From Linderina pennispora (taxonomy: Eukaryota > Kickxellomycota > Kickxellomycetes > Kickxellales > Kickxellaceae), in contig NW_024468292.1 of assembly GCF_002104995.1 (NCBI RefSeq), positions 1 through 63,275 of the forward strand: DNA of 63,275 nt, given 5' to 3'. The number at the start of each line of letters is the position of its first letter. Positions within the stretch are counted from its first letter, which is position 1. Below the pieces are notes generated by a model that was given only the letters and a program-made list of their open reading frames with translations, was not told the origin of the DNA and did not search any database. Of the stretch, positions 2,026 through 41,789 are shown piece by piece. A program made the translations under genes and the position numbers.

Positions 2026-2241
2026 TTTGAAGCGCTTTTTTGAGACAATCATCCCTCAAGCTGTTGAAAACGGTGGAAATTAAAACGTACACAATATAAT
2101 GGGTCACATCCAATAACACTATTTTGCCTTTTTATCCCCATTCTCGATACTGTGAAGGCTGCGCATACGGCTACAGAGGCTCTAGGTGATTCGAAATTGG
2201 AGTCTTTTGTACGTGATCATGTCTATCCAATTGGCTACTAG

Positions 2242-2359
2242 AAATACTCTGCTCGCGATGCGAGCTCGGCTGCTAGTCAGCATGGGTTGACACGTCGATA
2301 CAAGCATCATGGCGAACCGGTCATTTGAACGTGTCGGATGGTTGTTGGTGCAATGTCGA
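2242..2359 (-). ncRNA. candidate guide (omega) RNA scaffold 3' of the Fanzor ORF
   Basis: Immediately after the nuclease stop codon, on the same strand, three inverted repeats cluster. A 7-bp pair lies at 2289-2295 / 2329-2335 (GACACGT / ACGTGTC), enclosing a palindrome ACCGGT. A short GCTG/CAGC hairpin lies at 2269-2281. A perfect 6-bp stem with a 3-nt loop lies at 2251-2265. In known TnpB and Fanzor systems the guide RNA is encoded at or overlapping the 3' end of the nuclease gene and runs past the element end into flanking DNA. Position and structure fit that arrangement. Transcription and the true 3' end cannot be seen from the sequence. Confidence 0.4.
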
Positions 2360-5067
2360 TCATGGACATCTCCTGTCTTGATGGCCTGCTCTGCGTAGAC
2401 GCTTCAGCGCTGGCTCACTGCTGCTAGCAGCAGAATCGCCTGCTGCTGCACGCCTCTTGTGCAGGTTCTTTGTTGCCAGGGTGGTGCCAGAAGCATCGGC
2501 AACAATGGCCATAAAGCGACGGAACCGTTCAGGAATACTGCCTGAATCACAGAGTGACTGGAAAATGAGCCTGAAGTTTAGAACTGCTGCGAGATCGCGG
2601 TTCAAGAGCCGAGACGAATAGGCTCGCCTGTATTGTGCCATGGCCCGCTTACATGACTCGCTTGTACAGCGGAGAAGGCCATGGCACTTCACAGTTGGGT
2701 TCTTCGATCTCTGGTAGGGCCGCGGGTTGGGAACATGCCGGAATGTCTGCAGTGACTTATCGCAGCAGAACGGGCACACCGACGATGTCCGGAATTCGTC
2801 GATCAGATAGACTTCAAAGCCATGGTGCTTGAACTTGTCGCGCCATCCCTTGCCACGAATCGGTGCATGGTGTCGGGCCATTGGCGCACTCCAATTGCCC
2901 ATGATCAGCACTGGATCTGGACCGAACTTGCTCCGGAGTTTCGTGGCAAGCCTGTGGTCTGCACGGGCCTGGTTCATGAATGAATCAAGGTGCAGCTTGC
3001 GGTGAAGCGGGTACACCTTGGGACTGGTACTGACACCTGGATGGGCCTTCCAGCGCCTTTGGTGCTGCTTGTTTGACTTAGTGAGTTGCTGCTCTGGTAA
3101 CCGCGCTGTCATCGTGCTGGCATAAAACGGTGCTAGGACACACCGCACAGATGCACGGGCAGCAACGTAGGCACGGAATTTTGCTGGGATAAGGGTCCGG
3201 CAGCAGTGCTTGGAAAGCTCTGCCTCTGCTCTGCGGACAGCATCTTCTGGGACTTGATCCTTTGTAGCCCGACGAATCCTGTCATAGTGGCGCAGCTTGA
3301 GCTCCTTATTGCGCTGCTGCCGTGTGTAGCGGTAGAGCATTTTTTCACCCTCTTTCCCATTGCTGCTATTTTCGTGCATCATGTATAGCAAATCGCCCCA
3401 ACCTGGATCGATGAATACACAGCGGCCTTTCAGATTCTGCAGCTCTGGCTGTGGGATCTGGTGGATATAGCGACAGTCAGCTATAGTACTGCCTCCCACA
3501 GCATCACCTCCTGCAACATCACCTGTAGCATCGCCTGTAGCATCGCCTCCCACAGCATCGCCTGTAGCATCGCCTCCCACAGCATCGCCTGTAGCATCGC
3601 CTCCCACAGCATCGCCTGTAGCATCGCCTCCCACAGCATCGCCTGTAGCATCGCCTCCCACAGAATTGCCTCCCGCAGCATCGCCTCCCGCAGCATCGCC
3701 TCCTGCAGCATCAGCATCCACTGCACCATCAGCCTTGGATATCTTGTCTTGCAACAAAATGCATATTGCTACACCATCTGTTGTCGCCATTCCGTGGAAT
3801 TTTCTATCACCATGCGCCTTAAATGGCTTTGATGTTAGATCTGCAACCCGGCCCCACACATCCCACACAGGTTGTGTGATCCCTTGGACTGGGTCATGTG
3901 CACAGACTGGGGGTGCTGGTGCATATGCATTGTTAAGTGCTGCAACAGTGTCTGCTGCTGCTGCCGATGCAGCAGCAAGTGAATCAGCCGCTACTGCTGC
4001 AGTTGCTGCAGTAGCCTCTGTTGCATCCGATGGCATCTTCGCTGCTTCGTGTGCAGCCTTCTTGGCCAATTTTTCGCCCCTTTCTGCTGCTTTCCTTGCC
4101 TCTGTTGCTGCCCTCTTTGCTGCGTTGATCTTGGTAACCTCCTCACGTGTTTTCGAAACAAACACCTGCTTGATTATTTGCTTGTCCAAACGCACATGGC
4201 CTGGGATCCATGATGTCCACAGAGGCAAGCATTGGGGAGGAGACTTGCCAAGCTGCTCATTCTCGATAAGCTGGCATAGGCGAATATATGCACGCAGATG
4301 CTGAAGTGGATTTGCCTTGGCACCATAGTATCGGCTGCCTTTGGCGAATCTGTACTTGGCATCATAGGCATTAAGGACTGGTGCCAGCTTGTTGTAGATT
4401 GCAAGCATCGGTGGGGTGAGCACACTGAGATCAGGGTGCCTAGAAGCAACTGCCTGGCGGAGCTTCTGTGCAGGTGTATAAATACACACTTGACATGCGT
4501 TATTGAACTCAGCCTTGGACACATTGCCCATTGTACTGTGCAGTGTGTTTTTGCGGCTGCGAATATCAATCAATTTGGCCAGAATCCGCTGTAGGCAAGT
4601 GCCATAGTGCAACACAATGTTGTTCTTGTATGCTGTCATCAGCTCGGTATCCACGTATGTTGCTACTTGATTCATTTCACGTACACCATGTAGCTCGATA
4701 TCGCCATTATGCAATAGATAATCATAAATATGGTATCTAACTACATCACCGAAATCTGCGCTCAACAGTTCTGACTTGTCCTTCCGGTTGACGAAATCCT
4801 TGGCAGATATGACAGTCTTCGCCTTCAGGTTACGATAAATGAATAAATAAATAAAACGAAAAAACCCTTTTTCACAAATGTTGCAGGGTCAAAGGCATCA
4901 TCGTCAGCTAGCTGATGGAGTAATATCCATCGTGCAAGCATGTATGTATGCTCTTGGATGATATTGACGCTGTATACAAATCGCTCTAGGCAGGGCAACA
5001 TAGAATCACAGAAGCCAATACCACCAAGTGATGTCTTTATGACAGTAGTGCTGCGGGTAATATTCAT
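2360..5067 (-). CDS. Fanzor-type RNA-guided endonuclease (eukaryotic TnpB homologue)
   Basis: Modelled as two exons, 5067-4876 and 4822-2360, giving 884 aa. The long open frame alone has no ATG upstream of a TTG at 4765, so a first exon is needed. A 53-bp intron (GT..AG, phase 0) joins it to an ATG-started exon with the usual Fanzor-like helical N-terminus. RuvC residues are all present: Asp536 (CVFIDPGWGDLLY), Glu740 in the relocated position (LIDEFRTSSVCPFC; the canonical site reads MGNWS), and Asp807 (LLNRDLAAVLNFRL). A zinc ribbon is formed by Cys747, Cys750, Cys783 and Cys788. Other regions are a Lys/Ala-rich helical stretch (about 295-360), a Gly/Asp/Ala repeat (434-508) just before RuvC-I, and a basic NLS-like tail. 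It is probably a nuclear nuclease, mobilised with its element. The reading frame is intact, so activity is plausible. Confidence 0.85.
3491..3715 (-). repeat. intragenic 27-bp minisatellite inside the Fanzor gene
   Basis: A tandem 27-bp unit encodes DAVGGDATG about four and a half times. Flanking it are shorter 15-bp units encoding GGDAA. The array falls in the loop immediately before the first RuvC aspartate and keeps the reading frame throughout. There are no unique spacers between units, so it is not a CRISPR array. Confidence 0.9.
4823..4875 (-). other. predicted phase-0 intron of the Fanzor gene
   Basis: On the minus strand it begins GTGAAAAAG and ends CCTGAAG, and is T-rich with a TAAC branch-like motif near the 3' end. 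It joins ..DPATF to AKTVISAKDF.. in frame. Without splicing, the upstream frame ends at a TGA within the intron and the downstream frame has no ATG. The length matches the other short introns in this window. Confidence 0.6.
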
Positions 5068-6318
5068 TTGAGAAATTTGGTAGGCAAAGTAAGAAGAGAA
5101 ATGATTCTGTTCAGTTTTGCTTTATTGGGTATGCATAGCATTAAGAACGTTTTTATTAAAAATGATCTGGCTTGCATGGTTCTTGGGGCCCTTAGCATTG
5201 ATACAGTCTCTTGAATCAGTCTATACAGACTGGGTCCATTGTGGCTCAAATACTACTGCTTACGCATGTTCATAAGACAAATTAATTTGTAAAATAAACC
5301 CACAAATATTGCATGACCGCTAGAAGAGCTATATGGCCTTATTCAATAGATGCTCATAAATAAACATCCTAAGAGTGTTGCGCAGCTGGTGATGACTACC
5401 ATGATGATGCCATGGAAGTTATCAGGCCGACCGACAATGAGAGCAGCTCTTGTGCTGAACCAATGGAGATATCTAGTGGAGACCTGTGACCACTACAATA
5501 CCAGCTTGTCACCCTGGTTTCACCGATGAGGTCAGATGCCACACAAGATCAAAGGGAGTTTACAGAGCAAGTCACTCAAACCCGTGTTGAAGCTTAAGAG
5601 TTTTTTTAACCAATTAAATAATTTCTAGCGGATAGTCGGACACTTTTTTTGACTATAAAATCTTATATAAAGGTAAAGATGATTTAATTCTGAAACACAA
5701 AAGTTATCATTCACTATTTTATCCACTTTTAAAGCTGTTGTCATTATTATTGATCATTTGTCTATTTACCACTATAATATATACTTGTAAATGCTATAGT
5801 GTATTATTCAAATATTTACTCTTACTATGATTCCTCTAATAAAAAATGAATACTATAGCAGGAGCTAGTAGTGGAACATGTCAATAATTTTGAGTGTAAT
5901 TAAAGTAATTACCCAAATACTGCATTCCTTAGACTACTTTATCAATGAAATCGACAAGGGTACTGGCATTTTCCTTCATGCAGCTATAAAAATAGGGACA
6001 AATGGAAGTGATTAGTTAACTTAATGGTGCTTCATACTGATTTGATAGTGAGGAGTCTATGAGAACTGAAAAATGCATATGAGATTATTTTAATTACTAT
6101 AAGGAAGTGAGGGTATATAGAACTAGGCTAAATAAGTTATTCTAGTCAATTGTGGGCAATATCAGGTGTCTGGATAGCCTAGCAACTAAGGGTCATAAAC
6201 TTCTGGACCAGAGCCCACAAATGCAGCAGATTAAGGACATGCAGAGCAGGTCTTTTAGGGGCTGCATCTAGATCTCAAAAGTTTATCATCCATACTAGTT
6301 GTATAGTCCATCATCTAC
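5068..6318. other. AT-rich spacer upstream of the Fanzor gene
   Basis: The stretch is strongly AT-rich, especially 5590-6120, with no long open frame. It should contain the promoter of the nuclease gene and perhaps the 5' end of its element. I could not identify terminal inverted repeats or a target-site duplication by eye. Confidence 0.4.
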
Positions 6319-30038: not shown

Positions 30039-30877
30039 AGCTAAACAAGCTGCCAAAACCAGGTCTGGACTGTAGAACTTCGAAAAAAATTAGCAAAGAG
30101 GACGGTCGGAAAGAGACGAGGCGGGCACAAGTGTCTTTGTAAATGCTCCAAACTAAACAGGATTTCGATGGAATAGAATCCGAGAGCTAGAGAAAAGGGA
30201 AAGAACAAAAATCTAGTGTGTAGAACCAGCGGGACAGAGCCGTCTCAGTATTTATAGGATTGGATTTGGCCATATCCCAGACTTTGGAACTGCGGCCTAC
30301 CTCAGCAGTGTCCATTGGCTCAGTGGCGCTGGGGCAACTGCCGTACATGGCTATGCTAAGCTCGGCGATGTGCCGATGGGACAGTGGCTCGGGGGTATCT
30401 GCGTGCACCGGTAGGGAATGGTAGCATGTGCACGCCACTGCCTCTTGGGTGGTGATGTGCCAAGAGGTGTGGAGGGCTTGGAGCTGATGCCGCTGTTTCA
30501 GTACCGCCCGATCGATTGCGTCACTCTGACAAAACAGGTCTACTCAGGGTTTAACCAGAAAGCACGTTGCCCTCGAGTTCGATTGGCCTATTGCACAAGG
30601 AATGCTGCCGCGCCAGCACTGCACCCTTGAGAAACAGCATACAGTACCAAATACGTATGTATGTGAGCCCTGGCCGTTGAACAGCACAGGCTAACCAGGG
30701 ATCTCTGCGGCGATTCGCTGTAGCAAAGGTCTCAGAAAATATACTTTTTATTATTGTTTTTGTCTGGTATCTGCGTTCCTTACCAAAGCAGTGCAGAAGC
30801 TTCGGCTTTGCCTTGTGCCATATCACGTTCGCACAACTTGCATTCCCTTCGCGGCAGGTCCGGGGCTGTCAAGAGAC
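30039..30877. other. intergenic spacer with TATA at 30250-30256
   Basis: The promoter of the FunK1-like gene (TATAAAT on the minus strand, 212 bp upstream of its ATG) and the 3' flank of the HP1 gene. No further gene is supported. Confidence 0.5.
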
Positions 30878-31733
30878 TTACTGAGAAGACCGGAATCTTA
30901 AGCGCTGCTCGTAAAACTTTAGCATCTGCATGGGCAGCTTCGCGTAAATAAGCTCTATTGGATACTCGCACTTTTGGCCGTTCTTCCACTGGATCTGGGC
31001 AATAAGGCCGTCGTCGGTAGCATCAAGCGTAATGATCTCGTCCAGGAGCGGCACCCAGTCATCGGCTTCAGGGCCTTCCTCGCCATACACGATCTCCTGG
31101 TCAGATGCTTCGTTGCTCTCGGCTTCTGCTGCTTCTGGCCCAGCCTCCTGCTGGGGTTTCTGCCGGGGGTTCTGCTTGGCTGTTGCCTCCTGTCTTGCCG
31201 ATGTGCGCCGGCGCTTGGTAGCCGCTTCTTTGGCCTTGAGCGACGACGCACCGTTAGACGCCGGGCGGCCACGCTTTTTTGCAGGCGCCGCCTTCTTTGC
31301 AGCCTTCGCATTATAGTCATCCCAGTACTTCTTTAGTATATCCTTATCGATGATGTTGTCCTCCGTCTCCCATGTGTTGTCCGCAGGATCATCGTACCCC
31401 TCCCATTTGATCATGAAGAGTGTCTCGCCATCCTATCGTGCCGATAAACAAAGCTAGTAAGCAGAGGCTGGCTCAGCACTAGTAGCCATCATGGGAATAT
31501 TTGTAACTTACCTCACCCTTTGTATGCTCAACGATTTTCTCGACGACATAGACGTCATCGTCTTCCTCAGTGCTCGATTCATCGCTCTTGTCGGCAGCAT
31601 CCTTCTTAACAACCCCTTCCTCGACAACTTTGTCTTCCTCAGCGACCTTGTCTTCCTCAGCGACCTTGTCTTCCTCAACAACCTTGTCGTCCTCGACTGG
31701 ATCCCAGTTTTCTTCTGCTGTCCGTTTGACCAT
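30878..31733 (-). CDS. HP1/Swi6-type heterochromatin protein
   Basis: Exon 1 is 31733-31512 and exon 2 is 31432-30878, giving 258 aa. A 79-bp intron (5' GTAAGT, 3' GATAG) separates them. Exon 1 has an acidic N-terminus with short repeats (KVAEED) and the first chromodomain strand DVYVVEKIVEHT. Exon 2 continues FMIKWEGYDDPADNTWE. The aromatic cage residues (Tyr, Trp, Tyr) that hold methylated H3K9 are visible. A Lys/Arg-rich AT-hook-like hinge (KKRGRPASNG) follows. The C-terminus (DDWVPLLDEII.., LIAQIQWKNGQ, PMQMLKFYEQRL) is a chromoshadow domain for dimerisation. It is expected in pericentromeric or telomeric heterochromatin. The start is the first ATG. The frame extends upstream only via GTG. 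Confidence 0.92.
31433..31511 (-). other. intron of the HP1 gene
   Basis: 79 bp, GTAAGT at the 5' end and GATAG at the 3' end. It separates the two halves of the chromodomain in phase 0. Confidence 0.85.
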
Positions 31734-32473
31734 TCTGATCACTGACACAAAAAATGAAAGATTCTGGGCGCGGAAATTAAAAGCCAGGAATTTGACGCGT
31801 AAAAAAAGCGATCCAGCGAAAGGTAGTGTGTGGCAAAGTCACGCGTCATCAGGTAAACCCCTGATGCCTGCCATGATCGATTAACAGATCAGCCAATGGG
31901 TGGCTTGGGGACGAGGGGATATGCTGGGCAGCGGGTCATGCATGTCTCATCTCCTGCGGCCCGCAGCTGCACCAATGCAAGCGCAGCTCATCGAGGGACA
32001 ATGAGACACCTTATCTTGCGTCTCCTATTTCTGTACATGTACCCCCGAGTCAGAAAAAATCCAGCAATTGCTGCATATGCAAGCTGTTCTCGGTTCAGGC
32101 ATTGGGCGGCGGGGGGCGAGTGGTGGTGGGCAAATTTCCGCCCCTGGCAAGTCTTGACATTCGAGCAGCCAGCTCGGGCATGCAGTCGCTTTTAATTTAA
32201 GCTGGCCAAGTGATGTGCCTCCATGCACGTGTCCAACATGACGTCTGCATATCTTGCAGACCCCCTTCTCCCTTCCCACTCTGTCCGCGTTTCTACTGGA
32301 CGACGACACCTATTGCTACCCACAGTGACCCTATGCCGGAAACAGCCGGTCGGCCCGCATCCCCGTCAACCGCTGGTGCACATCCCTCAGTTGATTTCCG
32401 GACTCGCCTACCATGCAGCTGAGAGGAAATTGCCTCCAACACGTTGACGCCCTCATCCCAGACGAAACTTGGG
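31734..32473. other. spacer between the HP1 gene and the metallothionein-like gene
   Basis: Divergent promoter space. No domain-bearing frame is seen. Confidence 0.5.
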
Positions 32474-32480
32474 TATAAAA
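32474..32480 (+). promoter_or_regulatory. TATA box of the Cys-rich micro-gene
   Basis: TATAAAA, 125 bp upstream of the ATG. A pyrimidine-rich leader follows, typical of highly expressed fungal genes. Confidence 0.65.
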
Positions 32481-32598
32481 GAGCATTCTGACAGGGGCTT
32501 CCACCCAGACATCTCATCTTCTCCTTCCACTATCTCCTGGAATTTAACCCTCACACCTTACTCTCTGTAGCGCGAACGCACCGTCTCACCCAACAACA

Positions 32599-32661
32599 AT
32601 GGCCTTCAACAACTGCGACTGCTCCTGCGACGGATGCAATGCTGGTGAACACTGCCACTAA
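32599..32661 (+). CDS. 20-residue metallothionein-like peptide
   Basis: A 63-bp open frame encoding a 20-aa peptide (MAFNNCDCSCDGCNAGEHCH). It has five Cys, in C-x-C-x-C-x2-C spacing plus a final C, and two His, a metal-cluster composition. For comparison, known ascomycete and basidiomycete copper metallothioneins are about 25 residues with seven Cys (recalled). The start context CAACAACAATGG is strong. The TATA box and CT-rich leader support real expression. No intron that would extend the Cys pattern is seen. The likely role is copper, zinc or cadmium chelation in the cytosol. It is too short for normal gene finders. Confidence 0.6.
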   Translation: MAFNNCDCSCDGCNAGEHCH

Positions 32662-34353
32662 GTGTGTCCCCTCTATGGTTATCTAGGCTGGCAAGCAAGC
32701 TCCCACTTCGTCTGACAACAGTCCCGACTCCTTTTGAATAGGTGCCTCCCCACCCCCTGTCCATTTGCCCTTCGCTCCTCGTTTCGCAGGATAATGGCGC
32801 ACTAAAACCCAGTCCAGGTTATTGAGAGGAACTGGGATTCGAAGACCTACCGAGATGCCTGTGCCTCCCTCATCCATCCTATATTTCCTTCTCTCTTTTC
32901 GGTTCACATAACAATATAACAGCTCGACGCCCGTTTTCGTACTCGGGATGACCTCTTACAGCCCCTCTCCTCTGGTATATGCACAAGCGAGAACGAATTA
33001 CATAGCATAGGCCGCAGCAGCGGCTATTTTCTTGACTGGCGACTGCAAAACGCTTGAAGCGTTTGGCAACAAGGGGGTGCTATTAGGGCCGAATGGGTCA
33101 TTGCTTTCCTTGGGTTTTGTGGTTGCGTGCTTTCACCTGTTCGAGACAATGGAAACCTAATTAATTTGTGTGTCTCGCTGCTATTTTTCTTCAGCACTAT
33201 GTGGTGGCGTGGGCATATGCCCGCCAAGCAATCCCTCAAAGCCTGCTACTTTGTCCTATCGATTGAAGCCCAATATCTCTAATTATGACACTCCTGGACG
33301 TCCGGCAATAATGCATTTGCCCATTAGAAGTGCTGTGCCTCATCCCCATGGATCCACTGCTGGATTGAGATAGCAACAAGCAAGAGCCCGGGGAATAGGC
33401 TAGAGCAAGGAAAATGAAAGGGGTTGCCAGTGGATAAGAGAATGTGTGCTAGCTAGAGCCGCATTCCGCTGTGAGAGAACCGAGGTGGATGTCAGGGCGA
33501 ACTCTATACTGTAAGTGACACTCAGACACCACGAAAGTCTGAGCGACGATCCTAGAATGAGTACCCTCAAGTACCTGCCAAAAGCAGAAAGTGCTTTACA
33601 CCAGCGCTAGAACCTGTTGCAAACCAGCTCGGGGTCTGTTGCAGTCCTGAGAACCCCTCCTCGCCAGAGCCTGGAAGGGCCGAGCAAGTTGGCTAGTAGA
33701 CCCGGGTCCAGTACCCGTGGGTGAAGATGGGGCTGCATATAGGCGATGCAGAACTAGCACCGATTTGCTACTTGCCGTCACAAATGGCAATTCCACGCAG
33801 CTCACAGCACAAGGGCGATAGCCTTGCGAGGATTCTATAAGGTTAGTAAGCTCAAAATACATCTATCTATTAGCTGCTAGATGGCTGGTTTGTTTCGCTA
33901 TCCGTCTGCCAGATTTGGCCTAGGAGACAACAAGGACTCGTGTGCCCTTCCAGGAAACATTGGCTGCAAATGGCTTGTGATTTCCGGGGTAAGCAGCATT
34001 TATCTAACCGCACACTCTGTTGCTTCGGGAGGCCAGCCTTCAAGATTAGATATATACAAGCGCACAAAACAGTTAATACTCTCAAACCCGTACTTGCAAA
34101 TAAGGCAGAATTCGCGAACATTGGGTGCATTGTCGAGAAGGAGAAAAACGGCTGGGGACAAGGCTTTCTTGCTCTTCGGCGCCTAATTCATATCCTCTTC
34201 TTCAGGCTGTTTTGCTTGTTTCACAGGTCCGTAATCGCAATTTTAGGTAGTCCAGCCCTCCAGATACAGTGCCTCTTGTCATGGTGCGGTCTGATTGTTA
34301 CACTTCAGGTAGCGGTCTGGCTATGGCTGGACTGTGGGACCATCTCCGAGGAC
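32662..34353. other. 1.7-kb spacer
   Basis: Holds the 3' region of the Cys-rich micro-gene and the upstream region of the C2H2 gene. Short frames overlap each other and lack domains. No RNA gene is recognised. Confidence 0.45.
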
Positions 34354-34360
34354 TATAAAA
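34354..34360 (+). promoter_or_regulatory. TATA box of the C2H2 regulator gene
   Basis: TATAAAA, 117 bp upstream of the ATG at 34471. Confidence 0.65.
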
Positions 34361-34470
34361 CGCCAAAGCTGGCCCGTAAACACCGCCTCTCTCTCTCCAT
34401 CTCGGAACAAGCGCACGCCGAATCCCCAAGACATTCTCACACTTTCCCCTATCGCACACACAAATAACCA

Positions 34471-35103
34471 ATGGCTCCCACGAACTCGTACAGCCTAGGT
34501 ATCCCCGAATCGGCTCGGCAAAGGAACATTCGCTCACTGTCGATCCGGACTGCCGACGGGAGCTGCGTCAGCCTGCTCAATGACGATATCTACTGCGATG
34601 TGCGCCGACGCTCATCCATGCCAGATCTGGCTCCTGCCTATTCACCGATGAGCCGCACGCCCTCGCCTGCGATCCGTCTCCCATCGCTTTCCGCACTCGT
34701 CGGGGAAATCACACCAAAGCGCCATCTCAATCCGCTGCCGGCTGTGCTCCCGCCATGCACACGCATTATCCCCAGGACTCCCATGGTGCGCAAGTACCGG
34801 TGCGAGTATCCAGGCTGTGAAAAGGCATTCACAACCAGCGGCCATATGACTAGGCATTATCGCATCCATACTGGCGAGAAGAACTATGAGTGCCTGCATC
34901 CAGGATGCACTAGTCGGTTCTCGCGCCAGGACAATATGATGCAGCACTACCGCACGCACTTGTCGCCGAGGAGCCGCCGTGGTCGCACGCCACACAGGGT
35001 CGCATCTGCTGAGGTCACGGCTGAACATTACTGCAAGCAGAAACCACTGGGCATCCGCAGTGGGTGTGAGAGATACTCATGCACCCCTCACTGGCCGTAT
35101 TAA
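34471..35103 (+). CDS. C2H2 zinc-finger transcriptional regulator (Nrg1-like)
   Basis: 210 aa, single exon. Two adjacent fingers: Cys111/Cys116/His129/His133 and Cys141/Cys146/His159/His163, joined by the TGEK linker. The finger sequences (KAFTTSGHMTRHYRIHTGEKNYEC.., SRFSRQDNMMQHYRTHLSPRSRR in shorter pieces) match the Nrg1/Nrg2 class of yeast repressors of glucose and stress genes. The N-terminal 100 residues are Ser/Pro-rich and contain RRRSSMPDL, a potential basophilic kinase site. Snf1 regulates Nrg1 in yeast. A link to the SNF1 gene in this window would be inference only. Confidence 0.85.
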   Translation: MAPTNSYSLGIPESARQRNIRSLSIRTADGSCVSLLNDDIYCDVRRRSSMPDLAPAYSPMSRTPSPAIRLPSLSALVGEITPKRHLNPLPAVLPPCTRIIPRTPMVRKYRCEYPGCEKAFTTSGHMTRHYRIHTGEKNYECLHPGCTSRFSRQDNMMQHYRTHLSPRSRRGRTPHRVASAEVTAEHYCKQKPLGIRSGCERYSCTPHWPY

Positions 35104-35463
35104 CAGCTGCTTGCCAGAACCTTTTTTCAGCCGAACATGCTTATATCCTTGTACAGACTTGCCAATAACAAAAAGTTAAACTAAAACAATTGACCGCGTT
35201 CCGAACTTTGGCTCTATTCTAAACCTGTGGCAAATCTCTGAGCGCTAGCTGAGGGACTACAGCCGCAAACAGTGCCTGGTGAATAGTTTGTCTAGTTCTA
35301 ACCAGAAGAAATCAATGCACGTTTGACAATAGCTCCCTGTTTAGTTGGCAAATGAGCGCATTGTGGATTGGAAACAAAACAAAAAAGATAGCGAGCGAAC
35401 AATGCGGTCAGCAAGTGACCAGGATGCAGAATGATGTCGCTGACGCTGTCCTATTTTTAGTGT
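35104..35463. other. convergent intergenic region
   Basis: 3' flanks of the C2H2 gene and the SH3b gene. Nothing else is recognised. Confidence 0.5.
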
Positions 35464-36120
35464 TTAGAACGCCAGGGCAACGATGGCAGCAGCACACATA
35501 GCCACAGCCTTGGCTGGTGACACACCGATAGCGCTGGCCGAGCCCTGCGACCTAGGCGTCGTCACCTTTGCAGAGGTAGACTCGGCGCTCGTCTTAGCGC
35601 TCGGCTTGGCGCTCGACTCAACCTCTGTCAGACTCTCGTCCTCAGATGGCAGCAGAATATCAGACAACTCGACATTCGACGCGTCGTCGGCCGAGCTCTC
35701 ATCCTCGATGCCACTGAGCTGTGTGTGCTTGCTAGAGGTGTGGGCCTTGGTGGCAGAAGTCTTGGTGGCAGAAGCCTTGGTGGCCGAGCCAGAGGGCTTG
35801 TCAGAGGAACTGTTACTGTCGCCAACCTCAGTGCTACCGCCATCACAACGAGGCGCAATGTAGCCGGCAGCGCCAGTCAGTACATAGTAGTCAGCCACAT
35901 AGCAGCCGTCCTGGGTGAGATCCCAAAGCTTATTGCCATAGACGTCCTGGCCGGGGATCTGGCATTCGATCTGGATATCGTCGCTCAGCTGGTAGATTGT
36001 GACCTTATCCGAGGCGGCTGTAGGCTTCTTGCGACAGTTAAGCGAGCTGGAATGGACGATGCTGTAGGCAGTTGCCTGGCTGGCAAACAGGGCGGAAGCG
36101 GTGAGAATAGAGAGCTTCAT
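35464..36120 (-). CDS. secreted SH3b-domain protein, probably GPI-anchored
   Basis: 218 aa from the ATG at 36120. A signal peptide (KLSILTASALFASQATA) is followed by a compact domain (SLNCRKKPTAASDKVTIYQL.., ending CYVADYYVLTG) of the bacterial SH3-like type. Such domains often bind cell-wall glycans or peptides. A long Ser/Thr/Ala/Lys-rich stalk (residues about 105-195) has tandem KASATKTSATK units. A hydrophobic end (AVAMCAAAIVALAF) suggests a GPI anchor. TATA lies at 36226-36232. The likely role is as a wall or surface protein. The ligand is unknown. Confidence 0.82.
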   Translation of the reverse strand: MKLSILTASALFASQATAYSIVHSSSLNCRKKPTAASDKVTIYQLSDDIQIECQIPGQDVYGNKLWDLTQDGCYVADYYVLTGAAGYIAPRCDGGSTEVGDSNSSSDKPSGSATKASATKTSATKAHTSSKHTQLSGIEDESSADDASNVELSDILLPSEDESLTEVESSAKPSAKTSAESTSAKVTTPRSQGSASAIGVSPAKAVAMCAAAIVALAF

Positions 36121-36225
36121 TATGTGTAGAAAAGGGCAGATATAATTAGACAAAGTAGCAAAGAAAAAAGTGAGGAACTGTTCAACTATGAAGAAAAAAG
36201 GCGAGAAGGAATGGACCAGGCGTCG

Positions 36226-36232
36226 CTATATA
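36226..36232 (-). promoter_or_regulatory. TATA box of the SH3b wall-protein gene
   Basis: TATATAG on the minus strand, 106 bp upstream of the ATG. Confidence 0.55.
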
Positions 36233-37805
36233 AAGCAGACAGACAAAAACGGTACGCGCACCACCACTGAGCATGCGAAAGTCCTTAGCTCAGCATAGTC
36301 CGCGCCGAGCCAATGATGTTCGTCATGGAAGGACGGGCTCGCCGCCCAACATGCATGTTTACCTGATGCAAGTTGATATAAAAATGGAAGGCGCTCTGCA
36401 TGTCTGTTGATTTCCCCATTCTTATACTATGAACTTGCTATTCTCCCCCGCTTCATTCAACCCGTATGCGCTAATGCAAGGAAAATCGCGCGCATCCCCT
36501 TCTTTTGACTGTTAGCGCAATCCAGGCTTTGTGCAGCTACGAGTCCGCCTAGAAAGGATGGAACCTAACACGAAATGCACTTATCCGCTCCCGCAGCAGT
36601 GCTGGTATGTGCCAAGTGCGGAGGGGGATATTGTGCGAAAACCTGCTGCGCAAGTGTCCCTGTTGTTGAACTCACCAATGTAATTATGCCGCACATATAC
36701 AAGGCACACTACCGGTTTTCTAAATCCCTTGTGCTGTGCGTGCGCCGGCTGCCCATTTTCGGTGCTTGCTGATTTGCAGGCCAGCTCTGATTATTGTGCT
36801 GTGATCAAGGCGTTTCCCACGTGGTACTTAGGTGTAATCCTCGGTCCCTGCTTTATTTCCACCAGAAAGACTCTGGATGGCTTAGCGTCGGACCCAGCAG
36901 TACGTGCAAGTGAGTGGCTTTCGAGCAGCATTATCTAGAAGAATTGCTGCACTATACGTAAGGTCTGGACTGGCACATGGAGTAGCCGTGCTGCCCTGCA
37001 GTTTTGGCGCTGGGTGTGAGAGTGGGCTGCATCGTACTCGGGGCAAACGAGGCGGTGTGTTTTCGCACCACGTTCCGGAGGCTCCTCCTCCTCAACCTTG
37101 AAGGGGATGGGCTTTCCAGTAGGCATACACGCATGCTGAGGCAGGTGGTTTTATTCGGGGCGTCTGCCAAAGACACGGCCAGACAATCGGCATTCAAGCC
37201 GATGGCTTAAGCCAGGATTACCGATTGTTGGTGGTGACGGACAACAGCAGTGTTGGCAGAACGGGGGCATTGACTTGCCGCCAGTTCTGCCCACCCCCAG
37301 CGCAGATAATATAGCGCGCCAACAATATACATCGCTGCCGAGTAGGGAACACTATTGTTTTGCGCTGATGGAGAGGTAGAGATGGGGGAGCTTACAGAAA
37401 CGCTCAAACGAGAGCCATGGGATTCTCCTGTTGTGGCATTCCCACTCACCACGCCAAGTGGGCTTGGGGAGGGAGAAAAGGGAAAGAGACATATAGCCAA
37501 GAGACGCAGTTGTCAGGGCAAACTCTTCCTATCGAATTGAGCTTCACTTTTTTCTCTCTATCCTGCTATTCTGCTGTTCTGTCTGCAAGCTGGCGTTATC
37601 GTAAAAACATTGACTTTATATATATTACTCCCAGAGGTGGCACATTGACACAACGCACATTGCCATTCCCAACAGCAAGATATTCCCGTAGCTCAAAGCG
37701 CATTTTCTTCTGCCCCTTCCATTTACTTCCATTCATCCAAAGCCTACCCTTTGCTTCCAATTCTATTTTTTTACTAACCACACATACTAGCTGCAAAAAG
37801 TAGTA
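36233..37805. other. 1.6-kb divergent spacer
   Basis: Upstream of both the SH3b gene and the first MFS gene. A TTATATATA run at about 37616-37625 may be the TATA element of the transporter. No gene is supported. Confidence 0.45.
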
Positions 37806-39542
37806 ATGCCGGATGCAGCGATTACTACTGGTGAGTGCCAGCCAACGGTTCGGTCGCTGGTCACAACAAACGCTAGTACCTGCAGCAACCACAGCATGCC
37901 GAGCAAGGAGAACGAGATCATCCAGATTCCACCTGGTAGCGCATCTGCCGAAGACACCACATCAGTCGAAGACACCACCTCGACGAATGGCTCTAGCAAC
38001 TTTGAGCGAAGCCCGGTGACAGCGCGGCAGTTGTACATGGCAATCACTGGCGGGGTCTTGCTTTATTTTATAGCTGCGCTGGAGACGACAATCCTGGCTA
38101 CCGTGTACATTGATATTGCAAATCAATACGACGACATGTCGAATGGCATCTGGATCATTACTAGCTACATGCTGTCATCAACTGCAGTCCAGCCATTGTA
38201 TGGGAAGCTCTGCGATATCCTTGGACGAGTCGAGACAATTCTGATATCGGTTGGGATATTCACAATCGGGTCTATTTTGTGCGCAGTATCAAAGTCGCTC
38301 GGAATGCTGATTGTGAGCCGGGTTGTGCAGGGTGTCGGCGGTGGTGGCCTCATGGCTCTGACATCAGTTGTCCTGTCTGATGTAACCACAGAAAGAGACC
38401 GGGGGAAATACAGCAGTTTTTTAGCCGCGAGTTTCGGCGTAGCGTCGGCGGTTGGCCCGGTGCTTGGCGGTCTGCTGGTCCAGCACTCGTCGTGGCGAGT
38501 AATCTTTTGGCTTAACTTGCCTGTCTGCCTGCCTGCTATGGCTATCATCCTTTACGGGCTAAAGGTGCCGCGGCCGCAGGGCACAATGCGGGAGAAATTC
38601 AAGCGGATCGATTTCCTCGGGTCGTTCTTGTTTATGTGCGGCATCATCCCGCTGGTTCTGGCGTTCTCGTGGGCTGGTGTCGGGGAGAGCTGGACATCGG
38701 CAAAAAACATGACGTGCATTGTTGCTGGTGCCGTCATGTGTGTTGTGTTTTTGATCGTTGAGTGGAAGGTGTCGGCGGAGCCCATCATCGAGCTGAAACT
38801 GTACAAGATCCGCAATATCGCAGTGTCATCAATAAGCCATTTCTTCTTCGGTGCGTCGACATATGGCCCAATCATGTTTATTCCCGTTTGGGAACTGTCG
38901 GTGAAACACTCGTCTGAAGTCTCGTCCGGTCTCCATCTGCTACCAATGATGCTGCCCATGGTGATCAGTGCCGCCATATCCGGCGCACTAATGGCCAGAA
39001 CAGGGAGATACAGACTGGTGATAGCCCTCGGTGGTATGCTGACTGTTATCGGCACCTCACTGCTAATTCTGATGGATGAGGACTCGGGTAATGGAAAGCG
39101 TATCGGATTTGTCGCAATACTTGGGACCGGAATCGGCCTGAGCCTACAACCTTTGCTTGTCGCAGCCCAGGTCACAGTGTCAGGGAAAGACATGGCAACA
39201 GTCACAACAATGCTGACGTTCTTGCGGTCACTGGGCGGAATCTTTGTCCTGTCAATTCTATCATCGGTAATGAACCGGACGCTGCGCACAGAGGCGGTGA
39301 AGCTCATCACGCTGTTTCCATTCAGCATGTATACCATTCTGAAAGCACTTGATGACCAGTCAGTGATCACCAAGGATCCAAGCATCCCAGAGGAGCTCAG
39401 AACGGCACTGACTCACATGTTCCAGACCACCATGCACAAGGTGTATATTGGACTGGTTCCGTTCGCCGCCATGTTCTTTATAGCGGTGCTATTCTTCAAA
39501 CATGTTGAACTCAACACGCGACGCAAGAAAACTATCAAATAG
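37806..39542 (+). CDS. MFS drug/H+ antiporter-like transporter (14-helix type)
   Basis: 578 aa, single exon. A hydrophilic N-terminal 75 residues precede the first helix (LYFIAALETTILATVYIDIA), which carries the family motif L(D)-x(5)-VA-like segment. Motif A follows (GKLCDILGRVETI), then VQGVGGGGLMA and the antiporter motif C (SAVGPVLGGLL). Hydrophobic segments number about 14, as in DHA2/TRI12-like exporters. It is paralogous to the next gene on the same strand, 450 bp away. The substrate is unknown: toxic compounds, siderophores or basic amino acids are all handled by this family. Confidence 0.9.
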   Translation: MPDAAITTGECQPTVRSLVTTNASTCSNHSMPSKENEIIQIPPGSASAEDTTSVEDTTSTNGSSNFERSPVTARQLYMAITGGVLLYFIAALETTILATVYIDIANQYDDMSNGIWIITSYMLSSTAVQPLYGKLCDILGRVETILISVGIFTIGSILCAVSKSLGMLIVSRVVQGVGGGGLMALTSVVLSDVTTERDRGKYSSFLAASFGVASAVGPVLGGLLVQHSSWRVIFWLNLPVCLPAMAIILYGLKVPRPQGTMREKFKRIDFLGSFLFMCGIIPLVLAFSWAGVGESWTSAKNMTCIVAGAVMCVVFLIVEWKVSAEPIIELKLYKIRNIAVSSISHFFFGASTYGPIMFIPVWELSVKHSSEVSSGLHLLPMMLPMVISAAISGALMARTGRYRLVIALGGMLTVIGTSLLILMDEDSGNGKRIGFVAILGTGIGLSLQPLLVAAQVTVSGKDMATVTTMLTFLRSLGGIFVLSILSSVMNRTLRTEAVKLITLFPFSMYTILKALDDQSVITKDPSIPEELRTALTHMFQTTMHKVYIGLVPFAAMFFIAVLFFKHVELNTRRKKTIK

Positions 39543-39995
39543 CAGATTGGCCATATCGATAAATGAAGCTTTGTAGTTATTTTCTTTTGAATGGTATATT
39601 TTGAACTCAGCCATTATAGACCCAATGAACAACAGCCAGTCGGCTGTGGCGAGAACATAGGGTGTTGATATGAAGTGCAAGGCCTCTTCTTTACCCGTCA
39701 CTTGTGGCGTATGTGCAATGGCAAATACCTGCACAACCTACTGCCCAGACAGATGTCGAGGCGAAAGTGGTCAGGACGGTAGCACGTAAAAAAGTGATAT
39801 TAAATATATCCCTGCAAGGTAGTAGCAGAAGCTCGTCGATAGAGCTATTCAGTTTTCCGAAATGGCATCTGACCTGGTCGGGAGAAAGGAGTCCCAGAGA
39901 GAGAAAACTGGTATGCTGCTCAAGCACATTAACCCACAGACTCCATTTCTAAACTACTCTCATATCATTAAACAGCCGTGAGGAATGCAAAAACA
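39543..39995. other. spacer between tandem MFS genes
   Basis: Carries the promoter of the second transporter. Nothing else is recognised. Confidence 0.5.
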
Positions 39996-41789
39996 ATGAG
40001 TGCAAGACAAAAGAGCTGCTCATTTGAAAGGAGGTCGGGGATACAGTCACCCTTGGCCACAAACATTACCGGCGAAGGACTTGGATTAGTGATGGACGGA
40101 ATGCCCTATGGAATATGCGAGAGCGAAAAGCCAACGACACCCAACCCATTTATCAACATTGTCCGGCGAGACACATTTGAGACCACCGACCCCATTGGCG
40201 AAAGTGTGCTGGACGACGCGTCGTCATCGGCAGTATCCTCTGATGACGATGTCGAGACAAGCCTTCTGACCGGAAAGCGTCTGTACCTGGCGCTGGCCGG
40301 TCTTGACACGCTGCTATTTATTGCCTCGCTGGACATGACGATCATTGCAACAGTATACGTGGAGATAGCCGACAGCTTTTCGTCTCTCTCACGGGCCGAG
40401 TGGACAGTGACATCGTATATGCTAGCATCAACAGCATTACAGCCGCTGTATGGGAAATTCAGCGACATCCTGGGCCGCGTTGAAGCTATTGTGGTTGCAG
40501 TGCTGCTGTTCGTTGTTGGCTCGATAATGTGTGCGCTGAGCAACTCTATGAGCATGCTGATTGCCAGCAGGGCCGTGCAAGGGCTAGGCGGCGGCGGCCT
40601 GGTCAGTCTGATATTTGTGGTAGCTGCGGATATTCTGAGTGAGCGCGAGCGCGGGAAATACATTGGGCTGTTTTCGGGCACCTGGGGTCTGGCGTCGGCG
40701 GTGGCCCCGATTCTGGGCGGCGCCATTGTACAGCGGAGCTCCTGGCGGCTGATCTTCTGGATCAACCTGCCGATCTGTGCCATTGCACTGGCGCTGGTCA
40801 TTGTGACCATGCGGCTGCCAAAGCCCCAGGGGTCGATGCGCGACAAGATCAAAAAGATTGATTTTCTGGGCACATTAATGTTCCTCATAGGCACCGTGCC
40901 GCTGCTGCTGGGGCTGTCATGGGGCGGCCGCGAGTACACATGGACGTCGCCGCTGGTACTCGGGTGTCTGGTCGGTGGGTCGCTGGCGCTGTGTGTGTTC
41001 ATGGCCATAGAGTGGAAGGTGCCGAACGAGCCAATTGTGCCCTCGCACCTGCTGGCTATCCGCAATGTCTCGCTATCTTCAGTTGGTCACTTCTTCTATG
41101 GCGCTGCAGGGCTGGCTCCGATCATCTTCATTCCGCAGTGGGCGCTGCTAGTAAAAGGTGCGACGGCAATATCAGCCGGCATGCATCTGCTGCCGTTCAC
41201 AATCGGCACCGTGGTGACATCAGTGGTGGGCGGGTTCATCATGGCACGCACTGGGCGGTATCGCCGGCTAATTGTGGCCGGATCCGCCATGTTGGCCGTG
41301 GGCAATGGCCTGCTTGTTTTACTTGACGAGAAATCCCGTCTTACCTTACAGATCGGTCTACTGTTCCTGTGCGGGCTGGGCGCGGGCGCCTGTATCCAGC
41401 CGATTATGATGGCTGCACAGGTGGCAGTGTGCGGTCGCGATATGGCGGCAGTCACCACGCTGTGTGCGTTCCTCAGGTCTCTGGGCGGAATCCTGAGCGT
41501 GGCCATCCTGAGCTCGGTCATGCATAGCAATGTCAGACAGGGGCTGATACATTTAGCCACCAGGTACCCGTTCAGCATCCGGTTCCTGCTGGATGTCGGC
41601 GAGAACCAGTCAATCATCTACAAACCTGATGTGCCGGCTGAGCTGCGTGTGGCAATTGTGCATATCTTCCAGAGGGCGCTGCGTGCCTCGTTCTATGCAC
41701 TGCTGCCATTCTCGATACTCTTGGTTGTATGTACACTGGGATTCCAGCATCTGGAGCTGAAGCGGCAAAGAAAAAAGACCATCGGGTAA
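39996..41789 (+). CDS. second MFS drug/H+ antiporter-like transporter (tandem paralogue)
   Basis: 597 aa from the ATG at 39996. A GTG further upstream is not a eukaryotic start, and the ATG at 39984 is out of frame. It keeps the same architecture as the upstream gene: LDMTIIATVYVEIA, GKFSDILGRVEAI, VQGLGGGGLVS, SAVAPILGGAIVQ and a RKKTI tail at the very C-terminus. Both proteins end with a matching Leu/Lys-Arg pattern (H-V/L-E-L then basic KKTI), so the pair clearly arose by tandem duplication. The N-terminus is longer and more acidic (DDASSSAVSSDDDVE). Confidence 0.9.
   Translation: MSARQKSCSFERRSGIQSPLATNITGEGLGLVMDGMPYGICESEKPTTPNPFINIVRRDTFETTDPIGESVLDDASSSAVSSDDDVETSLLTGKRLYLALAGLDTLLFIASLDMTIIATVYVEIADSFSSLSRAEWTVTSYMLASTALQPLYGKFSDILGRVEAIVVAVLLFVVGSIMCALSNSMSMLIASRAVQGLGGGGLVSLIFVVAADILSERERGKYIGLFSGTWGLASAVAPILGGAIVQRSSWRLIFWINLPICAIALALVIVTMRLPKPQGSMRDKIKKIDFLGTLMFLIGTVPLLLGLSWGGREYTWTSPLVLGCLVGGSLALCVFMAIEWKVPNEPIVPSHLLAIRNVSLSSVGHFFYGAAGLAPIIFIPQWALLVKGATAISAGMHLLPFTIGTVVTSVVGGFIMARTGRYRRLIVAGSAMLAVGNGLLVLLDEKSRLTLQIGLLFLCGLGAGACIQPIMMAAQVAVCGRDMAAVTTLCAFLRSLGGILSVAILSSVMHSNVRQGLIHLATRYPFSIRFLLDVGENQSIIYKPDVPAELRVAIVHIFQRALRASFYALLPFSILLVVCTLGFQHLELKRQRKKTIG

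Follow-up and report, generated by a model that had tools for sequence, protein, structure and literature searches.

A predicted Fanzor1 nuclease gene carried by a non-autonomous Helitron1-type element in Linderina pennispora

Introduction

The paper in which Fanzor proteins were shown to cut DNA called their role for the elements that host them unknown, and drew on the analogy with TnpB to propose that they may assist transposons moving as single strands, such as Helitrons (PMC10432273). Fanzor1 proteins are defined by features that include a RuvC I aspartate within a DPG motif (PMC10711439). The motif preceding the guide match is given as 5'-ATN for PpFz1 and as 5'-CATA for SpuFz1 (PMC11423790, PMC10432273), and Helitrons of the Helitron1 type are described as having 5'-TC and CTRR-3' ends (PMC3627910, PMC5148889).

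Among the closest described systems, CRe-1, CRe-2 and CRe-3 of Chlamydomonas (Bao and Jurka 2013, PMC3627910) are also non-autonomous Helitrons with a Fanzor1, and they are reported to have termini in common with other Helitrons and to undergo internal deletions. Spu-1 of Spizellomyces punctatus, the element of SpuFz1, also carries a Fanzor1 and is present in many copies, together with coding-less 'ghost' copies (PMC10432273). Here, we analyse a Fanzor1 gene of the fungus Linderina pennispora, the element that carries it and the related elements of the same genome.

Results

The window gene and its Fanzor1 identity

The window, that is, the whole stretch of 63,275 nucleotides analysed here, carries the gene on its minus strand, as it does all features of the element described below. 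A spliced model joining positions 5067-4876 to 4822-2360 gives an uninterrupted protein of 884 aa (64 + 820 codons), which reproduces, with an intron of 53 nt, the model without frame break of the original prediction. Exon 1 (4876..5067) starts with an ATG at 5067 that is kept in 25 of 25 copies, the predicted intron (4823..4875, GTGAAA...CTGAAG) keeps its GT...AG in all 25 near-full copies, and exon 2 (2360..4822; 820 codons and a TGA stop) is uninterrupted and matches PpFz1 at E 7e-73. Unspliced, the region consists of two open frames, of 80 aa and 801 aa, and it is open throughout only in the spliced model.

The RuvC I aspartate, D536 (3407..3409, in IDPGWGD), is D in 89 of 90 ungapped homologues, and the RuvC III aspartate, D807 (2594..2596, in NRD), in 76 of 82. 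The relocated RuvC II glutamate, E740 (2795..2797, in LIDEFRTS), is E in all 93 ungapped homologues and stands six residues ahead of the first zinc cysteine, C747, the canonical glutamate site reading GNWS (N707) and being therefore lost. Alignment with copies and homologues places the zinc ribbon at C747, C750, C783 and C788 (2651..2776), and a basic tail, KRLRR, is present. All the residues previously pointed out, namely the three acids, the four cysteines, the basic tail and the DEFRTS and GNWS sites, could thus be located, and the protein has the D536-P-G motif, the relocated glutamate, the C4 zinc ribbon and the RuvC III aspartate of Fanzor1. A low-complexity insert of GGDATGDAV repeats (3476..3745) is predicted to be disordered (pLDDT <50 at residues 343-428 of the 801-aa frame), and its length varies between copies, as judged from the BLAST pattern. 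The underlying repeats of ~27 bp differ in number between copies, and the frame is nevertheless kept in many.

The phmmer search that gave the match to PpFz1 also found SpuFz1 at 2.4e-34 and GtFz1 at 2.4e-6. With a profile built from 57 sequences, PpFz1 was matched at 3e-222, and the only PDB sequences at E <=0.01 were three Fanzor1. The AlphaFold2 model of the 801-aa frame has a mean pLDDT of 68.8 and a pTM of 0.57; the ten-residue blocks with the three acids score 75, 90 and 88, and values fall below 50 in the insert and at residues 754-801. Foldseek ranked PpFz1 first for this predicted fold (E 1.7e-29), followed by SpuFz1 and GtFz1; matches 1-7 were Fanzor1 and the next was Cas12f at 7.3e-3. 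Both the PDB sequence matches and the fold ranking place the protein nearer Fanzor1 than TnpB or Cas12. The Fanzor identity first proposed therefore stands in the profile search and in the predicted structure, and sequence, profile and predicted fold together confirm the gene as a Fanzor1, a predicted RNA-guided nuclease. The Pfam profile PF07282 scored 15.9 bits on the window protein, below its cut-off of 26.3, and matched nothing in the whole genome, so that this Pfam route misses these Fanzors.

A search with residues 430-760 yielded 94 homologues, mostly from Coemansia and some from Mucorales; an earlier search gave none, probably owing to low-complexity words. These homologues fit the early-diverging fungus originally suggested as the source, as does a transporter encoded in the window, whose identity to a Linderina pennispora protein is 97% (over 92%). 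Two adjacent, alike transporter-like genes, by eye major facilitator proteins, lie at 37806-39542 and 39978-41789.

A Helitron1-type element

Similarity between the copies of this high-copy family stops sharply at the limits of an element of 3,442 bp (2238..5679), which starts with TCTTTACC at 5679, ends with CTAG at 2238 and is flanked by A on the left (5680) and by TA on the right (2237-2236). Nine nt ahead of CTAG, predicted folding and the aligned 3' ends reveal a terminal hairpin, GCTCGC-ATC-GCGAGC (2251..2265). The same order of hairpin, 8-9 nt and CTRG is found at the other 3' ends, followed by TA in 29 of 29 ends of one listing and in 50 of 50 Fanzor-type ends of a larger one, in which two RepHel ends were set aside and allelic copies were counted separately. 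This target TA (2236..2237), a putative motif or guide start, is also found in all five paralogous unoccupied sequences, in four of them as ATA, two of the five lying within TATATA runs and being less informative. The TA is therefore genomic and the element ends at CTAG, CTAGTA being rejected as its end.

The 5' ends start with TCTTTACC, often with added TCTTTA units. Of 27 simple 5' ends, a set that includes some RepHel ends and from which seven repeat-bearing ends and one tandem end were set aside, 23 have A ahead of TC, three have T and one has G. Many 5' ends (e.g. L005, L006, L099 and L071) are preceded by TCTTTA runs or partial 5' termini, as would result from repeated copying of the start.

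The first base after the element is T in 50 of 50 ends, and the three allelic empty sites that were read show no target duplication, but all three have indels there. The element thus has the TC/CTRR ends, the 3' hairpin and the A|T insertion without duplication of Helitron1; it encodes no RepHel, the remaining Helitron1 feature, and is therefore non-autonomous. A Helitron2 or Helentron type was rejected, the target being A|TA and not TT or TTTT, and inverted repeats linking both element ends being absent among the 25 longest of 114 pairs, a limited test. Targeting of tRNA genes was also discarded: a tRNA-Glu lies ~210 bp from the window element, yet no tRNA gene accompanies any of the 30 loci other than the window locus and its allele.

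Used as a genome query, the 3' 125 bp of the element gave 251 candidates; of the 40 that were scored, 39 reach the final TA and one falls short by two bases. With the 5' end there were 216 candidates, of which 40 were scored, and with the Fanzor protein 544, of which the 56 that were scored yielded at least 101 matches. Since only part of the candidates was scored, copy numbers are lower bounds. Some internal deletions are common to several loci (1677 to 2931 in L036, L041, L042 and L052; 1732 to 2931 in L046 and L050), which means that derivatives lacking most of the nuclease have spread.

RepHel partners and their tandem layout

The PF14214 profile has 13 matches in the genome, and PIF1 and Pif1_2B domains are also present in the RepHel. 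Its Rep part aligns with that of Helraiser, a bat Helitron1 (PDB 7lcc), at E 6.5e-106 over 302 residues. Five RepHel units were fetched, each beginning with the first 80 bp of the Fanzor element (92.5-95% identity), so that a 5' terminus of ~80 bp (5600..5679) is common to both. The match at G000:C68:198243-198650 is to a more distantly related RepHel (E 5.8e-24) and lies within a 1,989-codon open frame. A third element family (L074 after 6812, reverse complement; right flank of L009) has only about its first 57 bp in common with the Fanzor and RepHel elements.

The RepHel 3' end, read in four of the five units, is GCTTGCATYGCAAGC-ATGAGACTG-CTAG. As a genome query, with all candidates scored, it marks eight places, each directly adjoining a Fanzor-type 5' terminus that sometimes lacks its first bases; seven of these junctions were read in letters and the eighth (C171) by coordinates. 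The neighbour is Fanzor-element sequence in seven cases, known over the first 320-390 bp only at hC and C171, and another family in one (hE).

Such a layout may suggest a single composite transposon of ~9 kb, made up of RepHel and Fanzor and moving as a unit by reading through the inner 3' end, and the lack of any solo RepHel 3' end among the eight agrees with this idea. We consider it doubtful, because the neighbour of hE belongs to another family, the junctions vary (CTAG|TC, |TT and |TA), and the tandem RepHel copies diverge by 0.5-2.5%, whereas the Fanzor units next to two such copies, hA and hB, have diverged more (5.6% for hA vs L007). This unequal divergence implies that the tandem pairs do not simply move together, and it weakens simple co-transposition. 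Alternatively, the resident 5' termini (A|TC) that RepHel nicks may also be its preferred insertion sites, in which case targeting would produce the tandem layout as a by-product. The CTAG|TC junction fits an insertion exactly at A|TC, and the layout is the same at hE, where the neighbour is of another family; on the other hand, some RepHel insertions elsewhere would be expected and none is found among the eight. We give this second possibility a chance slightly short of even. A comparison of TA frequency after Fanzor and RepHel ends was dropped, since every RepHel end lies in a tandem and is thus uninformative on target choice.

Selection on the gene and on its 3' tail

Copies were compared over 25 near-full loci, that is, the window copy (L001) and 24 others, the five truncated of 30 loci being left out. 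Relative to the majority, variants present in at least three copies comprise 86 synonymous and 69 other changes, as against 79 and 199 for those present in one copy (Fisher p 4e-8; the synonymous-to-other site ratio is 0.30). Between the stop codon and the end of the element lies a conserved non-coding 3' tail of 122 nt (2238..2359), a putative guide-RNA scaffold together with the Helitron 3' end. Counted over 123 columns, two of them flanking bases, the tail has 5 shared and 21 private variants, compared with 50 and 48 at 394 four-fold sites. It is thus depleted of shared variants (0.041 vs 0.127 per site, p 0.004), and private rates are alike (p 0.17). Shared variants in the gene and in the 3' tail have been under purifying selection and private variants are near-neutral, which indicates that both gene and tail stayed functional in the lineages from which new copies arose.

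These results bear on whether Fanzor is a passive passenger, caught by the Helitron and of no benefit to it. Helitrons are described as capturing genes (PMC5148889), and copies minus most of the coding part have spread, as would be expected of a passenger; purifying selection over rounds of copying, seen in shared variants and absent in private ones, and the conservation of a non-coding tail both speak against it, and we regard this explanation as quite unlikely.

The tail contains two small predicted stem-loops, one of which, GCTGACTAGCAGC (2269..2281), is directly upstream of the terminal hairpin and shows few changes among the 50 aligned Fanzor-type tails. The predicted fold is no more stable than that of shuffled sequences (z -0.44), no covariation was seen in the same 50 tails, in which changes are too few, and the Rfam search of the window matched no family except a tRNA.

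State of the window copy

The spliced frame is open in 12 of the 25 near-full copies. Seven of the 12 end ten codons before the stop of the window copy; in the remaining five, the window copy among them, this earlier stop is read through, adding ten residues (codons 875-884, window 2363-2392). In L005, an open copy, a second stop falls past the ten-codon-earlier one. The allele of the window copy, L008, has a frame break, with its first stop at codon 280.

At 93 conserved positions, the window copy departs at eight, as many as L003, and the remaining ten open copies at 5-7. Five of the eight departures are shared with L008, while D231G, R266W and R539W are absent from it; R266W and R539W are unique to the window copy among the 25. 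Position 539 (3398..3400), which follows the DPG motif beside the catalytic D536, is R in 23 copies, Q in one and W in the window copy. Among ungapped homologues, R539 is found in 84 of 91, R266 in 62 of 70 and D231 in 69 of 74.

The original prediction had taken this copy to be functional or recently so. A fully active nuclease would agree with its unbroken frame of 884 aa and with every catalytic and zinc residue being in place, and W539 also occurs in two of the 91 homologues, so that R539W need not kill function. Nevertheless, the three changes at conserved positions that are missing in the allele, together with the high number of departures, make the window copy a doubtful representative, and we judge its full activity improbable. 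The claim thus holds for the family, which was under purifying selection and has many open copies, and less well for the window copy, which, judging from its sequence, is probably impaired despite its open frame. The first reading of the sequence was right, and it overlooked W539, the mobile family, the Helitron ends and the RepHel partner.

Allelic pairs and empty sites

The window contig (1-63275) resembles a second haplotype of the part of C1 near 3.10-3.14 Mb, and in places the assembly holds both haplotypes. Positions 30600-36600 of the window match C1 with 97% identity over their full length, and L008 lies near the corresponding place; the small contigs thus appear to be second haplotypes.

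The pair L022/L039, compared over the 3' part of the element and with a left flank known for ~40 bp, shows a substitution-free tract that covers 1,600 bp of element, with one gap of a single base, plus 221 bp of flank; beyond it, 33 substitutions fall within ~1,280 bp (2.6%). None of the other three profiled pairs has a clean conversion tract: element and flank differ by 2.3% and 2.4% in L012/L016, by 3.1% and 2.9% in L017/L025 and by 2.0% and 7.6% in window/L008, whose flank aligns poorly. A fifth allelic pair, L041/L043, outside these four, has differing deletion forms at one site.

The L022/L039 identity may reflect the assembly, or heterozygosity lost by chance, and not Fanzor homing. It is seen in a single profiled pair, in a comparison limited to the 3' part of the element and the short left flank, and this would favour chance or assembly; against this, the tract ends just 221 bp from the element, and the differences kept at L012/L016 and L017/L025, in element and flank alike, indicate that read mixing is not general. 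We see the chances of this explanation as evenly balanced.

Searches with joined flanks (40 of 90 candidates scored in one run, 7 of 7 in another) identified unoccupied counterparts for L030 (C206), L004 (C24) and L020 (C106). C112 is probably the empty counterpart of L005, with nine bases of left flank only, and C153 perhaps that of L003, possibly a paralogue; neither match shows a net length change. L029 is occupied on both haplotypes and L024 matched itself only. C206 has 11 extra bases at the insertion point and C106 eight extra within the first right-flank bases; as both segments can be placed so that A|T borders them at either end, they could equally be small target losses at insertion. 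C24 (G000:C24:75459-75637) lacks 42 bp relative to L004, from -20 to +22 around the insertion point, with GTCAC at both edges, a loss resembling the outcome of microhomology-mediated repair. The L022/L039 tract and the indels in the three empty alleles read, of five found, are hints of homing, three cases being too few to decide.

Discussion

The explanation that best accounts for the data as a whole is a Fanzor1 on a non-autonomous Helitron1-type element, mobilised by RepHel in trans and homing under the guidance of its tail, the window copy being probably an impaired allele. We hold this joint explanation to be likely. It builds on what was observed of the ends, the A|TA target, the ~80 bp common 5' terminus, the tandem junctions, the deleted derivatives and the selection on gene and tail. 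In this model, RepHel would mobilise the Fanzor element as single-stranded DNA. The 3' tail would be transcribed through CTAG-TA into the flank and serve as the guide RNA, with which Fanzor may cut the unoccupied site on the other homologue, A|TA there being the target motif. The occupied junction, which reads G|TA, would be spared from cutting, and repair would copy the element across to the cut homologue.

The 5'-ATN motif of PpFz1 fits the A|TA insertion site of the Linderina element, and an insertion there would split the likely target motif. If the motif preference is shared in the family, the empty site would present ATA and the occupied right junction GTA. A|TA could also be a preference of RepHel, unconnected to Fanzor. 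A more specific version, in which Fanzor is the homing half of the Helitron, would have RepHel insert at A|TA and the flank-guided Fanzor cut the same ATA on the empty homologue, where the element is copied in; the split motif would protect the occupied site, the L022/L039 tract would record a homing event, and failed repairs or resistant alleles would account for the indels at the empty sites. We put this version forward tentatively, as possible and, on balance, rather unlikely.

One genome holds both halves of such a system, with their common terminus, 216-251 candidate places for element ends (40 scored per search) and occupied and empty versions of some of the sites. With both halves and two haplotypes at hand, the role of Fanzor becomes testable largely by sequencing, with a concrete prediction for the motif. 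The Linderina genome is therefore a natural system in which to study Fanzor function, and this setting is more interesting than the activity of the window copy. Helraiser is not known to carry a Fanzor.

Among Fanzors of solved structure, PpFz1 of Parasitella parasitica (PDB 9cf0-9cf3) is the best match by sequence, profile and fold, and the two proteins have in common the DPG motif, the relocated glutamate and the Zn ribbon. Their identity is 23% in the structural alignment, and the long GGDATGDAV insert distinguishes the Linderina protein. The Linderina gene resides in a Helitron, whereas no mobile-element setting is described for PpFz1 in the account available. The RNAs of PpFz1 and SpuFz1 are laid out as SL1, SL2 and then the guide, an order that the Linderina tail with its two predicted stem-loops resembles, although SL1 is reported to have seven pairs and the small stem of the Linderina tail has four (PMC11423790). 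For Spu-1, a CATA motif is reported, with CA upstream of its left end, as well as 30-nt inverted repeats and no transposase found within (PMC10432273); the Linderina element has Helitron1 ends and a RepHel partner instead. The CRe elements are of the Helitron2 type, insert after TTTT and are often 5'-truncated, with duplications (PMC3627910), in contrast to the Helitron1-type ends and the A|T insertion of the Linderina element, without duplication at the sites read. The Linderina gene is thus a Fanzor1 of a known kind in a new setting, a Helitron of the canonical type with RepHel partners in the same genome.
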